NCBI GenBank assembly: GCA_016946835.1
Contig: JACVTC010000005.1
Coordinates: 1,200,001-1,220,000 of the forward strand
Direction of reading: 5' to 3'
Length of the DNA stretch: 20,000 nt
Source of the DNA: Neocallimastix lanati (nom. inval.)
Lineage: Eukaryota; Neocallimastigomycota; Neocallimastigomycetes; Neocallimastigales; Neocallimastigaceae
Position numbers and translations under genes: made by a program. Positions 3,798 to 19,332 of the stretch are shown piece by piece (positions within the stretch are counted from its first letter, which is position 1; the number at the start of each line of letters is the position of its first letter). A model generated the notes under the pieces. The model was not told the DNA's origin. It worked only from the letters and a program-made list of their open reading frames with translations, and searched no databases.

Positions 3798-5308
3798 TTA
3801 ATTTGATTTGGTATCCTTTTCTTTTTCAGTTTCAGTTTCTTTTTTTGGGGATGAAGGTGGTGGTGGTGATGAAGACTTTTTTACTTTTAATTTTCTCTCA
3901 GCAGAACGCTTATCCGCCTTTTGACGAAGAACAAGATGTCCGAAAATTGAAGTGTAAATTGAAGCAATACCCAAAGCTCCTAAGGTTTGGAAGAGATTGA
4001 GCTTAATGAAGAATAAAACTAAAATACCAATGATGGAACAGAGACTTAGAATAAATAATACACCAAAAATAAAGGTTTTACTATTGTAGAATAAACCATT
4101 GATATTTATTCCAATTTTATTCCACTATAATTATATTATTATTAGTTATTATTAGTTATTATTAATAATTATTGGGTATTATTGGTATTTATTGTTGTTA
4201 TTAAGTTTTTATTATGTTCAAGATTTGATATATAGAAAAATTGAATGAAATTATTAATGAAATTATAATATAATATAATATAAAAAATATATATATAAAA
4301 AAAAAAAGTTAATAATTGTTCATAAATCAATATATTTATATATAAATATCATAATAATTATATCTATCATACTCAATTTTTTTTTTAAAAAAAAAAAAAA
4401 AAAACTAATATTTATATTATTATTACTATTATTGTAATGAAATAATATATATATATATATATTATATTTTATATTTTATATCTATTTATATCTATATTTA
4501 TTATATATATTTACAATGAAAAGTAAGTAACACCATGGAATGAACATTAAAACAAAGACAAACTCAGCAAAAACCTTATTTGGAGCTTTTGGTTCTGGTT
4601 TGAAAATATGAGGTTGATCTGGTTTTGGATAAAAGTTTGGACCTTCAGATTCCATAAGAGTTGGAGCCCTGTTAGGGTCAACCTTCTTTTCTGGAATAGA
4701 ATACTTAACTTCCATATTACCAAATTTATATTCTAAAGGAGCATAATCCTTTTTTGGTGAAGAAAAACGAACAATCATAGAATAGTCACCATTATCAATA
4801 GAAATATCCTTTAAATTCTATTTTTTTTTTTTTTTTTTTTTTAATTATTATCAATGTTATTATTTAGGATATGAAATTTATATTAATTTAATATGTAAGT
4901 ATATATAAAGAGTAAATTAATATTAATTAGTAAAAAATTTTATTTATAAATTTCAAATTATATTTTCATTTCGAGAAAATAATATATATATTATGGTATA
5001 TATTATGGTATTAATAATATAATTTAACTATAAATAGAATGAATATAAATTTTTTTTTTTTTTTTTACAAGTTGGTATCTTCCTTCATCAAGCGAATCAA
5101 GTAAATATGAATTTTGAGATTTATCATTAGATAAATAAAGCATGGCTTGTTCAATCTTATTAATTTCTTTTTCTTTATTATCCTTTTCTACAAGTTTTAA
5201 TGAAATTTCTAAACTATCCATATTGGAATATGTAATTTTTTCTAATACTTCTGGATATTTTAAACTGATGAAAAATACATTTTTATTATATATACATTTA
5301 TTTTTAAA

Positions 5309-7972: not shown

Positions 7973-10113
7973 TTAAATGTAATCATAATCATTGCCTCTA
8001 CTAAAGAAGTAACGATAGCCTATAATGGTACCATATACCATTAAACCTCCAATAATAGATAAACTAGCTGAAAAGTGTGTTATCTTTGATGACAAAATAA
8101 ATAAATAAAATAGAAAATAAATATTTGATATATCATTAATAATCATTACACAATATGATAGTTAGTGGAATTATAGAAAAAAAAAATTTTTTTTCTTCTT
8201 TGCTTTTAAATAAATTTTAATAAGATTAATATTAAATACTTACAACACCAATATGAGTTAATACGGCAGGTATACCTAATATAATTAAAAACGAGAATAA
8301 TTATATTAATATATATATATCAATTGAATATAAATTGTTATTATTATTTTTAATTAATTAATTAATTAATTATTTATTTATTTATTTATTATTACTTATT
8401 TCTTATTACTTATTATTATTACTATTTATTTATTATTATTACTTATTATTACGTATTACTTATTATTTATTTCTTATTATTTATTTCTTATTATTTACTA
8501 TTATTACTTGTTATTTATTATTATTACTTATTATTATTATTATTATTATTATTCATAATTTCTATCATTAAGATTATTATTATATATTTTATCATTATTA
8601 TTGTTTATTATTATTATTTATAAATATTTATTACTACTGATAATTTATTATTATTATTACTGCTAATTATATATAAGTTCCATCTTTTGATTATTATCAT
8701 ATTTTATATTATTATTGTAAAAGTTCGACATTCTTCGCAAGAATAAATTGAATTAATTATAAAAACATAATCACTATTATTATTGTATATAATTACCAAA
8801 ACCAGTAACTATAAATATAGAGGTGAAGAAAAATCCTACTTCATTTGATGATGAGCTAAATATACATAGAATTATAAATATATATATATATGTAAGTTTA
8901 TCCATATTAGATAATCAATCATTCAATTTAAAATAAATTATTATTTTTTATATTAAAAAAAAAAAAAAAAAAAACAATAATAAGCATAAAATAAAACAAA
9001 TAAACTATTTATTATAAATTGTAAAAATAATAAGTTTTCGACATGAACTAAAAAAGTATTACTCGTCAAAACCATCATTGTATGATAAATTGGAACAAAT
9101 GATATTTGGAATTGGGGCAACAGCATAAGTCAATACAACAAATAATGACCACCAATTACTACAAATTTTTAAATTAAATAAAAATATATATATTAATATA
9201 TTTTATTACAATTATTAGTACAAATATCAATTATTTAGTATATATATAATTATTTGAAAATAATTTCAAATTTTAAACTATTATTATTATTGTTGTTAAT
9301 ATTATTGTTATTATTATTGTTATTATATCTTTATTATTATTTTATTATTATTATTACTATTATTATTATTATTATTTATTATTATTATTTATTATTATTT
9401 ACCTTTCGATAGCACAAGATAAAATAATTAATAAAACTCCAATAGAAAAGAAAAACGCCTAGTTTAAACAATTTTTTTTTATTTATATAAAAATATGAAT
9501 TACACTTTAATGATTGTTTACAATTCTATTAATCTTTAATTAAATAATAATATCTAAATCTTTTTGTTTTTTAAATATATATTGATACTTACTAATCCAA
9601 TAATTCTTTTTTTATTATTATTATTATTATTTATTACAATTGTAAATTTATTTTTAAATAAATGTTAGTAAATATTAAAATCTTAAACATCATTATACAT
9701 ATATTTATACATTAATGATAGTTTATTTATAATATTGCTTAAAAATTAAACTCACTCTATTTGTGATTAGAAATGTTTATAAAATGAAGAAATTTATATA
9801 TAATAAAATGATTTTATTTATAAATTATTTGTTCATCAATTTGATATTCAGTTATATATATCCAATGTTTTTTTTTTTTTTTTTTTTTTTTGTATTTTAT
9901 TATTCCATTTGAATTGATAGTCATTTTTAAGAATAAAAAAAATATATATATATATATATAAATTTATTAAAAAAGTTTAAAATTATTTATTGATTAAAAT
10001 CAAATTTTTCATATTATATAATTATATATTTAAAAAATGAAAAAGAAGTATATAAAATTTCCTTATATTTTGAATTATATACTGTAATATTTAATTTTAT
10101 ATATAAATAAAGA

Positions 10114-10145
<32 letters not shown>

Positions 10146-10164
10146 TACTTTGCATTTCAGACAT
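7973..10164 (-). CDS. VPS55: Vps55/OB-RGRP (LEPROT) family endosomal protein, eight inferred exons
   Basis: Minus-strand exons: 10164-10149, 9756 (one nucleotide), 9605-9593, 9458-9403, 9158-9063, 8855-8797, 8275-8244 and 8083-7973. They total 384 nt, encoding 127 residues, against 140 in yeast Vps55 and about 131 in LEPROT. The family signature is clear: an N-terminal hydrophobic helix with IILSCA (residues 21-26), the loop APIPN (43-47), the acidic/Ser loop DDSSSNE (60-66) and two further hydrophobic segments (about 68-92 and 96-118). The C-terminus SRGNDYDYI corresponds to the FGRGDD end of the family. Four membrane segments are expected. In yeast Vps55 works with Vps68 in late-endosome-to-vacuole traffic. 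From the 13-nt exon onward every junction is GT-AG and in phase. The first two exons are inferred: MSEMQ at 10164-10149 plus a single A restores the frame and gives the Lys expected before the first helix. Confidence 0.88.
9593..9605 (-). other. VPS55: 13-nt micro-exon of VPS55
   Basis: The bases AATTATTGGATTA lie between the acceptor AAAAAAAG and a consensus donor GTAAGT (from 9592). A perfect branch site TACTAAC (9670-9664) lies about 60 nt upstream, and this is the first AG after it. The exon contributes I-I-G-L just before AFFFSIGVLLIILSCA, matching the start of helix 1 in the family. Reading upstream in frame hits a stop with no ATG, so the start codon must lie in an earlier exon. Confidence 0.75.
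9756..9756 (-). other. VPS55: candidate single-nucleotide exon of VPS55
   Basis: On the minus strand the sequence reads CTAATCACAAATAG, A, GTGAGT. A branch-point-like CTAAT and an acceptor AG (9758-9757) are thus followed by one base and a strong donor GTGAGT (from 9755). Exon 1 (16 nt) and the 13-nt exon do not fit in phase by themselves (29 nt). Adding this one base makes 30 nt and yields codons CAA AAA ATT ATT GGA TTA, that is Q-K-I-I-G-L, which aligns with T-K-I-I-S-L of yeast Vps55. This is inference from frame and signals, not transcript evidence. Confidence 0.55.
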
Positions 10165-14420: not shown

Positions 14421-15775
14421 ATGCAAAGTTCAATTGTAAGTAATTGTTTATTAAATATATAATACATATACTATTTCTTTTTATTCTTGATAAATAAAAA
14501 AATAGTTAAAAAAAGCACGATATATGTTTATTATATATATATATAGATATATATATGAATAATTTATAAATAGTATTAAATATATAAAATATATATATAA
14601 TTTTTTTTCCCAATTAATTCCAGTAATTAGTAATTGAACTTTTTTTTTTTTTTCAAATATTGCTTTTTTTTTTATTATTTAATAAAATATACCTTTTTTT
14701 TAAATAATATATATATATATTCTTAACAGAAAAAGATAACAGCAAATCATTTAATAAATAGAAATTATAATGAAACCAATAAAAACAGTTATACCAATAT
14801 CAATAAAAAATATCTATATTATCCAAGGAAAAGAACTGCTCTTGCAGAAATAAATACCAATAATAAAATTGTAAATATTAATAGTTAGAATATATAATAT
14901 ATAATATATATATATTTATATATTTATATAGTTATAAATAAATAATTTAAATATATATATATTTATAAAGAATAAAAATTGAAAATTCATTTTTTTTTAA
15001 TAAAATATTAAAAATTTATTTATAAAATTCTATACTATTATTACTACTGTTAAACCAAAACAAAAATAACATTACTATCATTATTAAGAATAATAATAGT
15101 AATAACAATAATAATAATAATGTTAATATTAAAAATGAAAATTATTTAAGACTGAAAGACCTCAAGTCTTCCATAATTAAAAATATTCAAAGAACAAAAT
15201 CAAAGTCTAGATGTCGTGTAAGTAGTCAATCTAAACAAGATCATTATCTTCATAAAACTATATCCACTCCTTTTAATTTAAGACATCAAATCAACGATAA
15301 TACCCAAAATTTAAAACATCTTACTCTCAATGATAATAAAAATCTAAATGGTTATAGTCAGAGCCTTAGTCTTTGTCATAATTCTAATTATAATAATGGT
15401 ACTAATAATAAATGTAATAGTAATCGTAATAACAACAGTAACAGTAACAATAGTAGCAAAAGAATTAGTAACAATAATAATAGTAATATTAATAGAAATG
15501 GATTATCATCCATCAATCAAAAAGCTAGAATATTTACCACCCAATTCAATGGAGGCAAGGAAGATGTTGATAAAGAGAATCGATACATTCCGAAAAGAAA
15601 AGAAGTCAATATTACCAAAAGAAGGGAAAGTTTAATTAGTAGTAAGGTAGATGTTGATAAAGAGAATCGATATACCTCTAAAAGAAAAGAAGTCCTTCTT
15701 ACCAAAAGAAGGGAAAGTTTAATAAAAAAACATAAAAAAGTGGAAATCCTAAATAATAATAAAAATAAAAATAAA

Positions 15776-15814
<39 letters not shown>

Positions 15815-17683
15815 TATAATAAAGAAAAATTAAATCTTCTTCTACAAAATAATTCAAATATTACTCTCAAAAATAGCAATAAAAATCCATTTTTAAGATA
15901 TGGTCATGATTCATCCATTACAAATCATATCAGTAACTCCAATCACTCCAATCCAACAAGTTTATTACAAAATCAAAATCAAGATCAAGAACAAAATCAA
16001 TATCAATTTCAATATCAAAATCAAAATAAAGAACAAAATAAAAATCAAGAACAAAATCAAGAACAAAATCAAGAACAAAATCAAGAACAAAATCAAGAAC
16101 AAAATCCATATCCATATCCATATCCATATCCATATCCATATCAAAATCTATTGAACAAGAATAAAAAAGAAATTCGATCATTACTATCTCAACTGGGGGT
16201 GAAACCCCATCCACATACCTTTTCAAAATTTTCTATCACCAATAGGACGCTCATCTCTCCAAAAATAAAATGTTTATATAAAAATAAAAAATTCGCTGAA
16301 AATAAAATTGAACAAAATAATAGATTTAAATCATTAAATAAACACGGATTTATTTTTGATGCTTCGTCTTTACCTTCATCTCTATCTTCATCTTTACCTT
16401 CATCTTCATCTTCCCCTTCCTCTTTCCCTTCCCCTTCTTCTTCTCTATTTCCTTTATCTAAATCAAAATTATCTAGAAATGATTTAAAAAATAATATTCA
16501 ACCTAGGACCACTGCTGCCAATGACATTAACACAGATATTAAAACTACTAATCTTAGTACTGACAGTAACCCAAACCATAGTAATAAAACTCATACCAAT
16601 TCTTTTACTACTACTACTTCTACTACTACTACTACTACTACTACACAAGATTCTGATTCAAAAGGATTTTTAGTAAATATTTTAAATGAAATTCAAGAGA
16701 GTAATTCTCATTATTATGATACCCATTCCCATTCCCATTCCCATTCCCATTCACCAAATAGTATTAATGAATTATTAAATAGTAATTTAAAAAGAAAAAG
16801 ATCCTGTTCTTCCATTCATTCCATTGCAGTAGAATTGAAAAAGAGGCATAATAATCTTGAAAAGAATAAAATAACCACTAAAGAAAAAGAAAAAGAAAAA
16901 GAAAAAGAAAAAGAAAAAAATTATATGGAATACAATCAAAATCAAAATATTATGAATATTGATACGAATTCTAAACCTATTCAAAGTACTCTATCCAAAC
17001 TTAATAGTAGTCATCCTTTCACAGGAATAACTATCACTCATGATCTTTATCACAATAATACTAGCAATGGAAATAATAATAATAATAATACTAATCATAA
17101 TCATAATCATGATAATAATCATAATAATAATCAAAATGGTAATAGTAATAGTAATAGTATTAATGAAAATAACCATAGTAATAACATGTATAATAAAAGT
17201 CCAATTCCTATCGCCAACTATTTGAATCCATGGATTCCAGAGGAATCCAAACATGAAAGTCTATTAAAGAAATCCTATTCCGAAAATAATTTAATGAGTA
17301 CTACTACAACTACTACTACCAATACTACTCATCCTCAAGAATGGAATCAGCAACCCTCATTCAATACATATTATTCCAAATTAAAAAATCTTTCACATAA
17401 TAATTTAAAACATAGTGTAGGGAAGAGTAGTAGCAACAACAGCAATAACAACAACAACAGCAATAACAATCCTCTTCAAAAAGAAAATTCTGCTCTCACT
17501 TTAGTAAATAATTCCATATCACAGCAACAGCCACTTCCTACTAGTAGTCAACATTCCACTTTTCAAAATTCTAAAAATTATTATGGGAACATAAACAACG
17601 ACAATATTATTGATATCGATATTGACAATGACATTGACAATAATAATAATAGCAACAGTAGCAACAACAACAACAACAACAAC

Positions 17684-17731
<48 letters not shown>

Positions 17732-18434
17732 TATAATAGAATTTTAGATTTATTAAATTCCAATTCTACCTCCTCACATTCCACTCATTTCAGTAGTAAT
17801 AGTGGTAATGTTCAATCCATCAATTATAAAAATGGATATTTACTTGAAAAAAATGATAATTTCCATAGGTATACGAAGGATACGATTCTTCCTTCAATAA
17901 TGAAGCCATCAACTGAAACTCAAATTCAAGGCCAAACTCAAGCTGAAATTCACCTTTATAAAAAAAATTTACCAACCTCAACTTCTATTTTACCATCAAC
18001 CACCTTTACAAAATCTTTTACTCAAAATAATTATATGTATATGAATCCATCTTCAAAAGAAGAAGAGGAAAAAGAAAAAGAAGAAAAAGTAACAGAAAAA
18101 ATAATATCTAATGGGATGACTCATAAAGAAATGAAAAGTAATTTTATTATGAACTATTTAGAATCGAATACCAATACCCATGCCAATACCCATGCCAATA
18201 CAAATATCCATACCAATATTAATCAAAAAGAAAGCCTAGATCATTCAAAGCCTAAATCTAAATGGATTAAAGATGTTGTCTATGATCCTATTGCGTTAAC
18301 AGAATATTCTAACGATATCAATAAATATATGAAAGAATTAGAGGTAACCCATTTATTTTTAAATGATATTAATTATTATATTTTTTTTTTAAAAAAAAAA
18401 AAATAATAATCATTATTAATATATAAAAATAATA

Positions 18435-18501
<67 letters not shown>

Positions 18502-18613
18502 TAAAAAATTATAATAATAATAATATAAAAAAATTATAATAATAACATAAAATAATAATAATAACAAAAAATAACAAATATATATATAACCTATTAAATA
18601 ATATAATAACAAC

Positions 18614-18644
<31 letters not shown>

Positions 18645-19332
18645 AAAGATTAAAATGCTTCCTGATCCAAATTATATTCAACATCAAAAGGAAGTCACCT
18701 GGAGTGCCCGAACCATTTTAGTGAATTGGATAGCTGAAGTTCATTGGAAATTTAAGATGCAACCGGAAACCCTCTTTTTAACGGTAAATCTTATTGATCG
18801 ATTTCTTTCCATTAAAACTATTAAATTAAATAAATTTCAGTTATTAGCCCTCTGTGCCCTCTTAATCTCTGCAAAATATATGGAAACGGTGGTTCCTTCC
18901 ATTAAAGATTTAGTTCGTATTGTGAATCATATGTATACTCGAGAAGAAATAATCCAAGCCGAACGTTGTGTATTAGTATTACTGGGATTTGATTTAGGCT
19001 ATCCAGATCCTCTTCATTTCCTAAGACGTATATCCAAAGCAGACGGCTATGGCACTAGAACAAAAATTTTAGCAAACTATTTAATTGAAATAGCACTTCT
19101 CGATGAACACTTCTTAAGTTATCCACCCTCAGTGGTAGCAGGAGCTGCCGTTCTTTTAGCCAGAAAAATTTTATTTAATGATCATGATTGGGTTAGTTTT
19201 TTTTTTCTGCTTTTTTTTTTTTTTTATTTTACATTTATTTTTATTTTATATTATTATTTATCATATTAATTATAATATCTTATAAAATTTATAATAATAA
19301 TATTAATAAATAAATAAACATATTAATTTATT

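Follow-up and report, generated by a model that had tools for sequence, protein, structure and literature searches.

Known one-nucleotide exons

Two conserved clusters of one-nucleotide microexons have been described in plants, cluster 1 in APC11 and cluster 2 in VPS55, with RNA-seq and RT-PCR support for them (Yu et al. 2022, PMC8831610). According to the same report, the VPS55 microexon is followed by conserved GTRAGT donors, and without this exon the annotated plant protein is 13 N-terminal residues short and counts three membrane helices rather than four (PMC8831610). A 1-bp microexon is also given for Vps55 of the alga Zygnema in another study (PMC11096116). The one-nucleotide exon of Arabidopsis APC11 was proved with mutants in protoplasts, and for its splicing it was proposed that the introns are recognized by intron definition and removed stepwise; the authors also cite the potato invertase, where splicing begins with the intron downstream of a 9-nt exon (Guo and Liu 2015, PMC4674806). 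In fungi, the CYP621A gene of Fusarium carries a one-nucleotide exon, a G in the context AGGGT, that is kept across Fusarium and is supported by 18 SRA reads; its authors count it as the second such case and the first to come from a gene of a fungus, and the accessible portions of the article make no mention of plant VPS55 (Nelson and Syed 2026, PMC12940212).

The original prediction of a one-nucleotide exon in the VPS55 gene of the anaerobic fungus Neocallimastix lanati had referred to single-nucleotide exons in plants, and these are indeed on record, VPS55 itself among them (PMC8831610). In the open-licence literature, searched with a few wordings, no report of microexons in anaerobic fungi or Neocallimastigomycota was found, and the combination of vps55 and microexon led to plants or algae only.

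The VPS55 gene of N. lanati

The assembly of N. lanati comprises 199 Mb in 762 contigs, and the window, i.e., the whole stretch of 20,000 nucleotides that was analysed, corresponds to C445:1200001-1220000. VPS55 lies on the minus strand of this window, from position 10164 to 7973. Its model consists of 8 exons, counting a single A, and encodes a protein of 127 residues that closes with a stop codon. The identity of the gene proposed originally was confirmed by a match to the Vps55 family (PF04133) with 1.9e-33 and 115.3 bits against a curated cut-off of 24.6, a score obtained with an earlier model that has a slightly different C-terminal junction. The acceptor of the last exon was taken from the deposited N. 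lanati protein P0001; compared by eye, both products are identical except at residue 6, which is K in our model and R in P0001. The features of the gene are as follows:

10149..10164, minus strand: exon 1, 16 nt, ATGTCTGAAATGCAAA, encoding MSEMQ and the first base of codon 6 (phase 1), followed by GTATTT
9757..10148, minus strand: intron 1, 392 nt, GTATTT...CTAATCACAAATAG
9756..9756, minus strand: putative exon of a single base, A, in the middle of codon 6 (AAA, K)
9606..9755, minus strand: intron 2, 150 nt, GTGAGT...TACTAAC (9670-9664)...AAAAAAAG
9593..9605, minus strand: exon 3, 13 nt, AATTATTGGATTA, last base of codon 6 and IIGL, between AAAAAAAG and GTAAGT
9403..9458, minus strand: exon 4, 56 nt
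9063..9158, minus strand: exon 5, 96 nt
8797..8855, minus strand: exon 6, 59 nt
8244..8275, minus strand: exon 7, 32 nt
7973..8083, minus strand: exon 8, 111 nt with the stop codon

The TACTAAC of intron 2, as read off the sequence, is located 58 nt upstream of the acceptor with no AG in between. Elsewhere in the window, an exon on the minus strand (3798-4124) matches Ribophorin_II_C (PF25147, 2.8e-12) and probably forms the last part of a ribophorin II gene. The plus strand at 15026-19269 bears a long open frame, rich in asparagine and serine and matching no Pfam family, and after it a pair of cyclin N- and C-domains (PF00134, PF02984).

The reading frame and the single A at position 9756

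When exon 1 and the 13-nt exon are joined directly, the product is MSEMQKLLD followed by a stop, i.e., the junction is one base short (modulo 3), in agreement with the mismatch noticed in the original prediction. That prediction had also held a single A to be the only candidate able to repair the frame, and this stood for single inserts: a script that searched the 543-nt stretch between both exons (8 AG, 8 GT) for single internal exons bounded by AG and GT, with a length of 1 modulo 3 and no stop, returned A 9756 and nothing else; the search covered the stretch apart from 20 nt at either end, and considered one insert at a time. This base is flanked by CTAATCACAAATAG upstream and GTGAGT downstream, and with it the gene reads MSEMQKIIGLAFFF; the predicted spliced junction is ATGCAAA-A-AATTATTGG.

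Exon 1 could be dispensed with as coding sequence if translation began in another first exon, for instance at the ATG of ATGATGTTTAAG within intron 2, which, as read off the sequence, would join the 13-nt exon in frame if cut before GTTTAA. Against such a start, the motif MSEM[HQ] encoded by exon 1 and the K after it are kept in the related gut-fungal proteins P0002-P0004, several chytrid proteins show MAGMK, one residue and then II, with equal length, and the paralogues described below retain first exons of their own that are matched by P0008-P0010; a start outside exon 1 therefore has a negligible probability in our judgement. The IIGL of exon 3 is present in P0001, P0002 and P0004.

In recursive splicing, zero-nucleotide sites known as ratchet points place an acceptor and a donor back to back, introns are removed stepwise, and nothing is retained. 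This possibility was rejected for VPS55 because one base lies between the AG and the GT and the reading frame needs that base. The reading that we favour is that base 9756 would be present in the mature mRNA as an exon.

Paralogues with the same layout

A Pfam search of the genome, which runs exon by exon and from which a very divergent Vps55 copy could escape, found three loci of the Vps55 family. Besides VPS55, these are two LEPROT-like paralogues, whose exons of 25 and 6 nt were modelled with the help of P0008 and P0010:

C632 (paralogue 1): exon 1 of 25 nt ending in phase 1, single C at 591732 flanked by TTTAG and GTAAGT, followed by a 13-nt exon; N-terminus of the product MARIPGVT-A-LIGL; predicted spliced junction GTTACAG-C-TCTTATCGG
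C554 (paralogue 2): exon 1 of 25 nt ending in phase 1, single C at 1591413 flanked by TTTAG and GTAAGT, followed by a 13-nt exon; N-terminus of the product MAKSQGIT-T-LIGL; predicted spliced junction ATTACAA-C-TCTTATTGG

A one-base exon is thus predicted in all three of the Vps55-family loci found, and for other species the comparison was made through protein sequences. The exons of 13, 56 and 32 nt are common to the three genes, and their single bases (A, C and C) lie directly between a 3' AG and a 5' GT, as TAG-A-GTGAGT at 9756 and as TTTAG-C-GTAAGT in both paralogues, with YAG before and GTRAGT after each. If the base is removed, a TAG stop appears where the 13-nt exon meets the 56-nt exon in every one of the three genes, and translation ends within 13 codons; with the base, full-length proteins are obtained. 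At the other 17 introns of the three models, the frame is kept with no extra base. In paralogue 2 the C was the only frame-keeping single insert returned by the script; paralogue 1 admits five further ones, among them a single T before the poor donor GTTTAT, and this counts against the one-base exon. From this common layout, it appears that the one-nucleotide exon predates the duplication that gave rise to the three Vps55-family genes of N. lanati.

The LEPROT-like paralogues also have 6-nt exons after the 56-nt exon (AGAAAA and GGAAAA, with a GTRAGT donor), which supply residues such as the EN seen in P0008 and P0010:

C632:591032-591027: 6-nt exon of paralogue 1
C554:1590583-1590578: 6-nt exon of paralogue 2

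The paralogues bear directly on the fear, voiced with the original prediction, that the mismatch stems from an indel, either within exon 1 or near the acceptor. The assembly or the sequencing could have lost one A from exon 1 or from the start of the 13-nt exon, AG-A-GTGAGT being there by chance; one extra A would likewise give K, and the assembly is described as PacBio-only with 62x coverage, built with MECAT and polished with ARROW (PMC8561657). Nevertheless, this doubt is answered by the two paralogues, since both sit on other contigs, require a single base at the equivalent position and carry it in the motif AG-C-GTAAGT; three matching errors are not credible, and the remainder of VPS55 is in frame. 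We therefore regard a lost base as extremely unlikely.

Residue 6 in related proteins

The residue to which the single base contributes differs between the readings: a single A or C predicts exactly K or A, while a boundary shifted by one base predicts R or G. Gut-fungal homologues, sampled as cluster representatives, include seven from short contigs (910 to 3837 nt) with intact frames. These contigs probably derive from spliced RNA, given that their frames are intact while the N. lanati gene has seven or eight introns. At this codon, K is found in the VPS55 group (P0002, P0003 and P0004; 3/3) and A in the LEPROT-like group (P0008, P0009, P0010 and P0013; 4/4), a count that leaves aside P0014, which begins past the site, P0006, which is more distant and has T there, and six genome-derived models. 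All six of the genome-derived gut-fungal models found are odd at the site:

P0001 (N. lanati, deposited): R at the site
P0011 (P. finnis): G at the site
P0007 (N. lanati): out of frame past exon 1
P0012 (N. lanati): a different first exon
P0005 and P0015 (A. robustus): asparagine-rich stretches replace the 13-nt exon

In addition, P0013 and P0015 match from AALLSV onward except for EN, the dipeptide that in N. lanati comes from a 6-nt exon.

The R of the deposited N. lanati protein, instead of K, counts against the one-base exon. It would be explained, together with the G of P. finnis, if the 543-nt stretch were a single intron with one of its ends displaced by a base (GT...AA or TA...AG), which adds a G and gives R at residue 6. 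Such a shift, however, would require that three genes share an intron of non-GT-AG type at the corresponding position, offers no account of the three AG-N-GTRAGT motifs, and predicts R or G where 7/7 short-contig homologues have K or A; we hold it to be very unlikely. The K and A residues, together with the odd gene models, make both an assembly indel and a shifted splice site unlikely, and the R and G of the gene models may well have arisen from an aligner unable to place a single base. With the single base read as an exon, the wrong N-termini of the Vps55 family in public gut-fungal gene models are explained, and an exon of this kind would be expected in other gut-fungal genera. Orthologous gut-fungal DNA was found neither in genome contigs (query P0001) nor in viral contigs (query P0004).

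Conservation of the K, to which the original prediction had appealed, holds in part: the three related gut-fungal proteins have it, while the chytrid proteins examined have T, A, V or M. Outside the gut fungi the residue varies among these same four (19 sequences examined among the 120 listed of 149 matches, none of them from gut fungi where an organism is named), and this lack of conservation counts against the one-base exon.

Rarity of the motif and strength of the donors

The looser AG-N-GT occurs in 10% of the dinucleotide shuffles of the VPS55 stretch, so that the weight of the evidence lies with the complete GTRAGT donor and with the paralogues. AG-N-GTRAGT was present in 0/5000 dinucleotide shuffles of the 543-nt stretch. 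YAG-N-GTRAGT occurs once in each of the three Vps55-family introns; in 5000 dinucleotide shuffles of each of these introns it appeared 0, 2 (0.04%) and 1 (0.02%) times, and it was absent from 400 strand-kb of N. lanati DNA (20 hand-picked stretches of 10 kb from 8 large contigs), in which AG-N-GTRAGT was found 3 times. Taking the rate of 3 per 400 kb as an upper bound, the joint chance for the three introns is about 6e-8, a value calculated once the motif had already been noticed. Across the genome, TTYAG-N-GTRAGT, a pattern that the VPS55 site itself (AATAG) falls outside, has 244 sites in 398 strand-Mb versus 314 for the reversed control; there is no excess, which counts against the one-base exon, and hence the motif alone marks no large class of exons. 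Among 100 of these sites that were listed, TTTAGCGTAAGT was frequent; a reading of it as many C exons was rejected, given that the six sites fetched all lie in one dispersed repeat.

The donors that follow the exons of 1, 6 and 13 nt are GTRAGT in 8/8 cases, versus 3/15 after the other exons (Fisher 3e-4), a test on three related and hence non-independent genes to which APC11 (GTAAAA) did not contribute. With the frame, the splice signals, the layout of the paralogues and the rarity of the motif all in its support, the reading put forward originally is upheld, and base 9756 is very probably a real one-nucleotide exon of N. lanati VPS55. The RNA-supported exon of plant VPS55 also speaks for it, as does the apparent need for a single base in N. 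lanati APC11.

APC11, a possible second family

APC11 was examined because plants carry a one-nucleotide exon there too. N. lanati has two copies, C76 and C224, and in both exon 1 has 19 nt (MKIKLN and an A, phase 1), while the next exon opens with the last base of the codon. The direct join ends after MKIKLNTGQV. The intron contains 3 AG in total. A single G, preceded by ATATAG and followed by GTAAAA, yields MKIKLNSWSSVALWKW, whose alignment with MKVKIKCWNGVALWLW from the APC11 chain of 4ui9 starts at residue 1 and is free of gaps over this part; the predicted spliced junction is AAATA-G-CTGG. We take this 4ui9 chain to be the human protein. In the C76 copy, which is open, the G was the only insert found by the listing script; in the C224 copy the same script found no insert, because the next exon soon runs into an in-frame TGA. 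It appears, then, that APC11 of N. lanati also needs a one-base exon, in the context AG-G-GTAAAA. This case alone is weaker than that of VPS55: the donor is GTAAAA, at 0.66 AG-N-GT per low-GC strand-kb, the chance of one in an intron of the APC11 type is about one in six, and a shifted boundary gives the same residue as a one-base exon, so that APC11 does not decide between them.

Order of intron removal

If base 9756 is an exon, both flanking introns would be ordinary GT-AG introns taken out sequentially by intron definition, because one base cannot seat the 3' and 5' splice-site complexes together. Removal of the downstream intron first seems somewhat the more probable order, since its donor GTGAGT is strong and that of exon 1, GTATTT, is weak. 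The donors of exon 1 are weak throughout the Vps55 family of N. lanati (GTATTT, GTACAT and GTATCT), and a strong donor behind the base combined with a weak one after exon 1 may be said to fit a downstream-first order in the family as a whole. The base would be required for every full-length VPS55 product, and its loss would simply terminate the protein. Exons of this kind could serve as small natural substrates for the study of how the spliceosome handles an exon without room.

Age of the exon and comparison with known systems

The VPS55 exon of N. lanati is a further case of the already known one-nucleotide exons, which in the literature consulted are otherwise reported from two plant clusters and one P450 subfamily of Fusarium. 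Within one fungus they appear to be present in three Vps55-family genes and in APC11, the two families known from plants. The exons of VPS55/LEPROT and APC11 might be a common inheritance of streptophytes and early-diverging fungi, with an early eukaryotic origin and with losses elsewhere through the loss of one of the two introns; this possibility we advance tentatively and rate at somewhat below an even chance. The exons of N. lanati and plants could equally well be independent, if such a fix is more readily tolerated in short exons at the N-terminus of small conserved proteins, and we give this an even chance; independent origin is about as likely as common descent. CYP621A shows that a one-base exon can arise in a separate gene (PMC12940212); on the other side, the plant clusters are in VPS55 and APC11, both of them families that appear to be affected in N. 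lanati, and APC11 was the only extra family tested. If one-base exons are as rare as reported, a coincidence in the same two families is unlikely. The age and stability of such extreme exon structures thereby become a matter of direct comparison of intron positions.

The Fusarium exon resembles that of N. lanati in that a single base separates AG from GT, that the gene is a nuclear one of a fungus, and that a phase mismatch led to its detection; it differs in that it belongs to a P450 gene and is supported by reads (PMC12940212). Arabidopsis APC11 has in common with N. lanati VPS55 one base (A there) needed for the frame, an earlier mis-annotation and a proposal of stepwise splicing (PMC4674806); it belongs to another family, in which N. 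lanati also appears to need one base. Cluster 2 of plants shares with N. lanati the VPS55 family, an exon of one base, a place near the N-terminus, the GTRAGT donor and a miss by annotation (PMC8831610). The loss of residues and of a helix from plant VPS55 is compatible with a position immediately ahead of the first helix, the one seen in N. lanati, though it does not fix that position; the likeness is one of family, N-terminal place and donor. The plant exon occurs in streptophytes and is partly alternative via intron retention (PMC8831610); in contrast, that of N. lanati belongs to a fungus, extends to three paralogues and is known from DNA.
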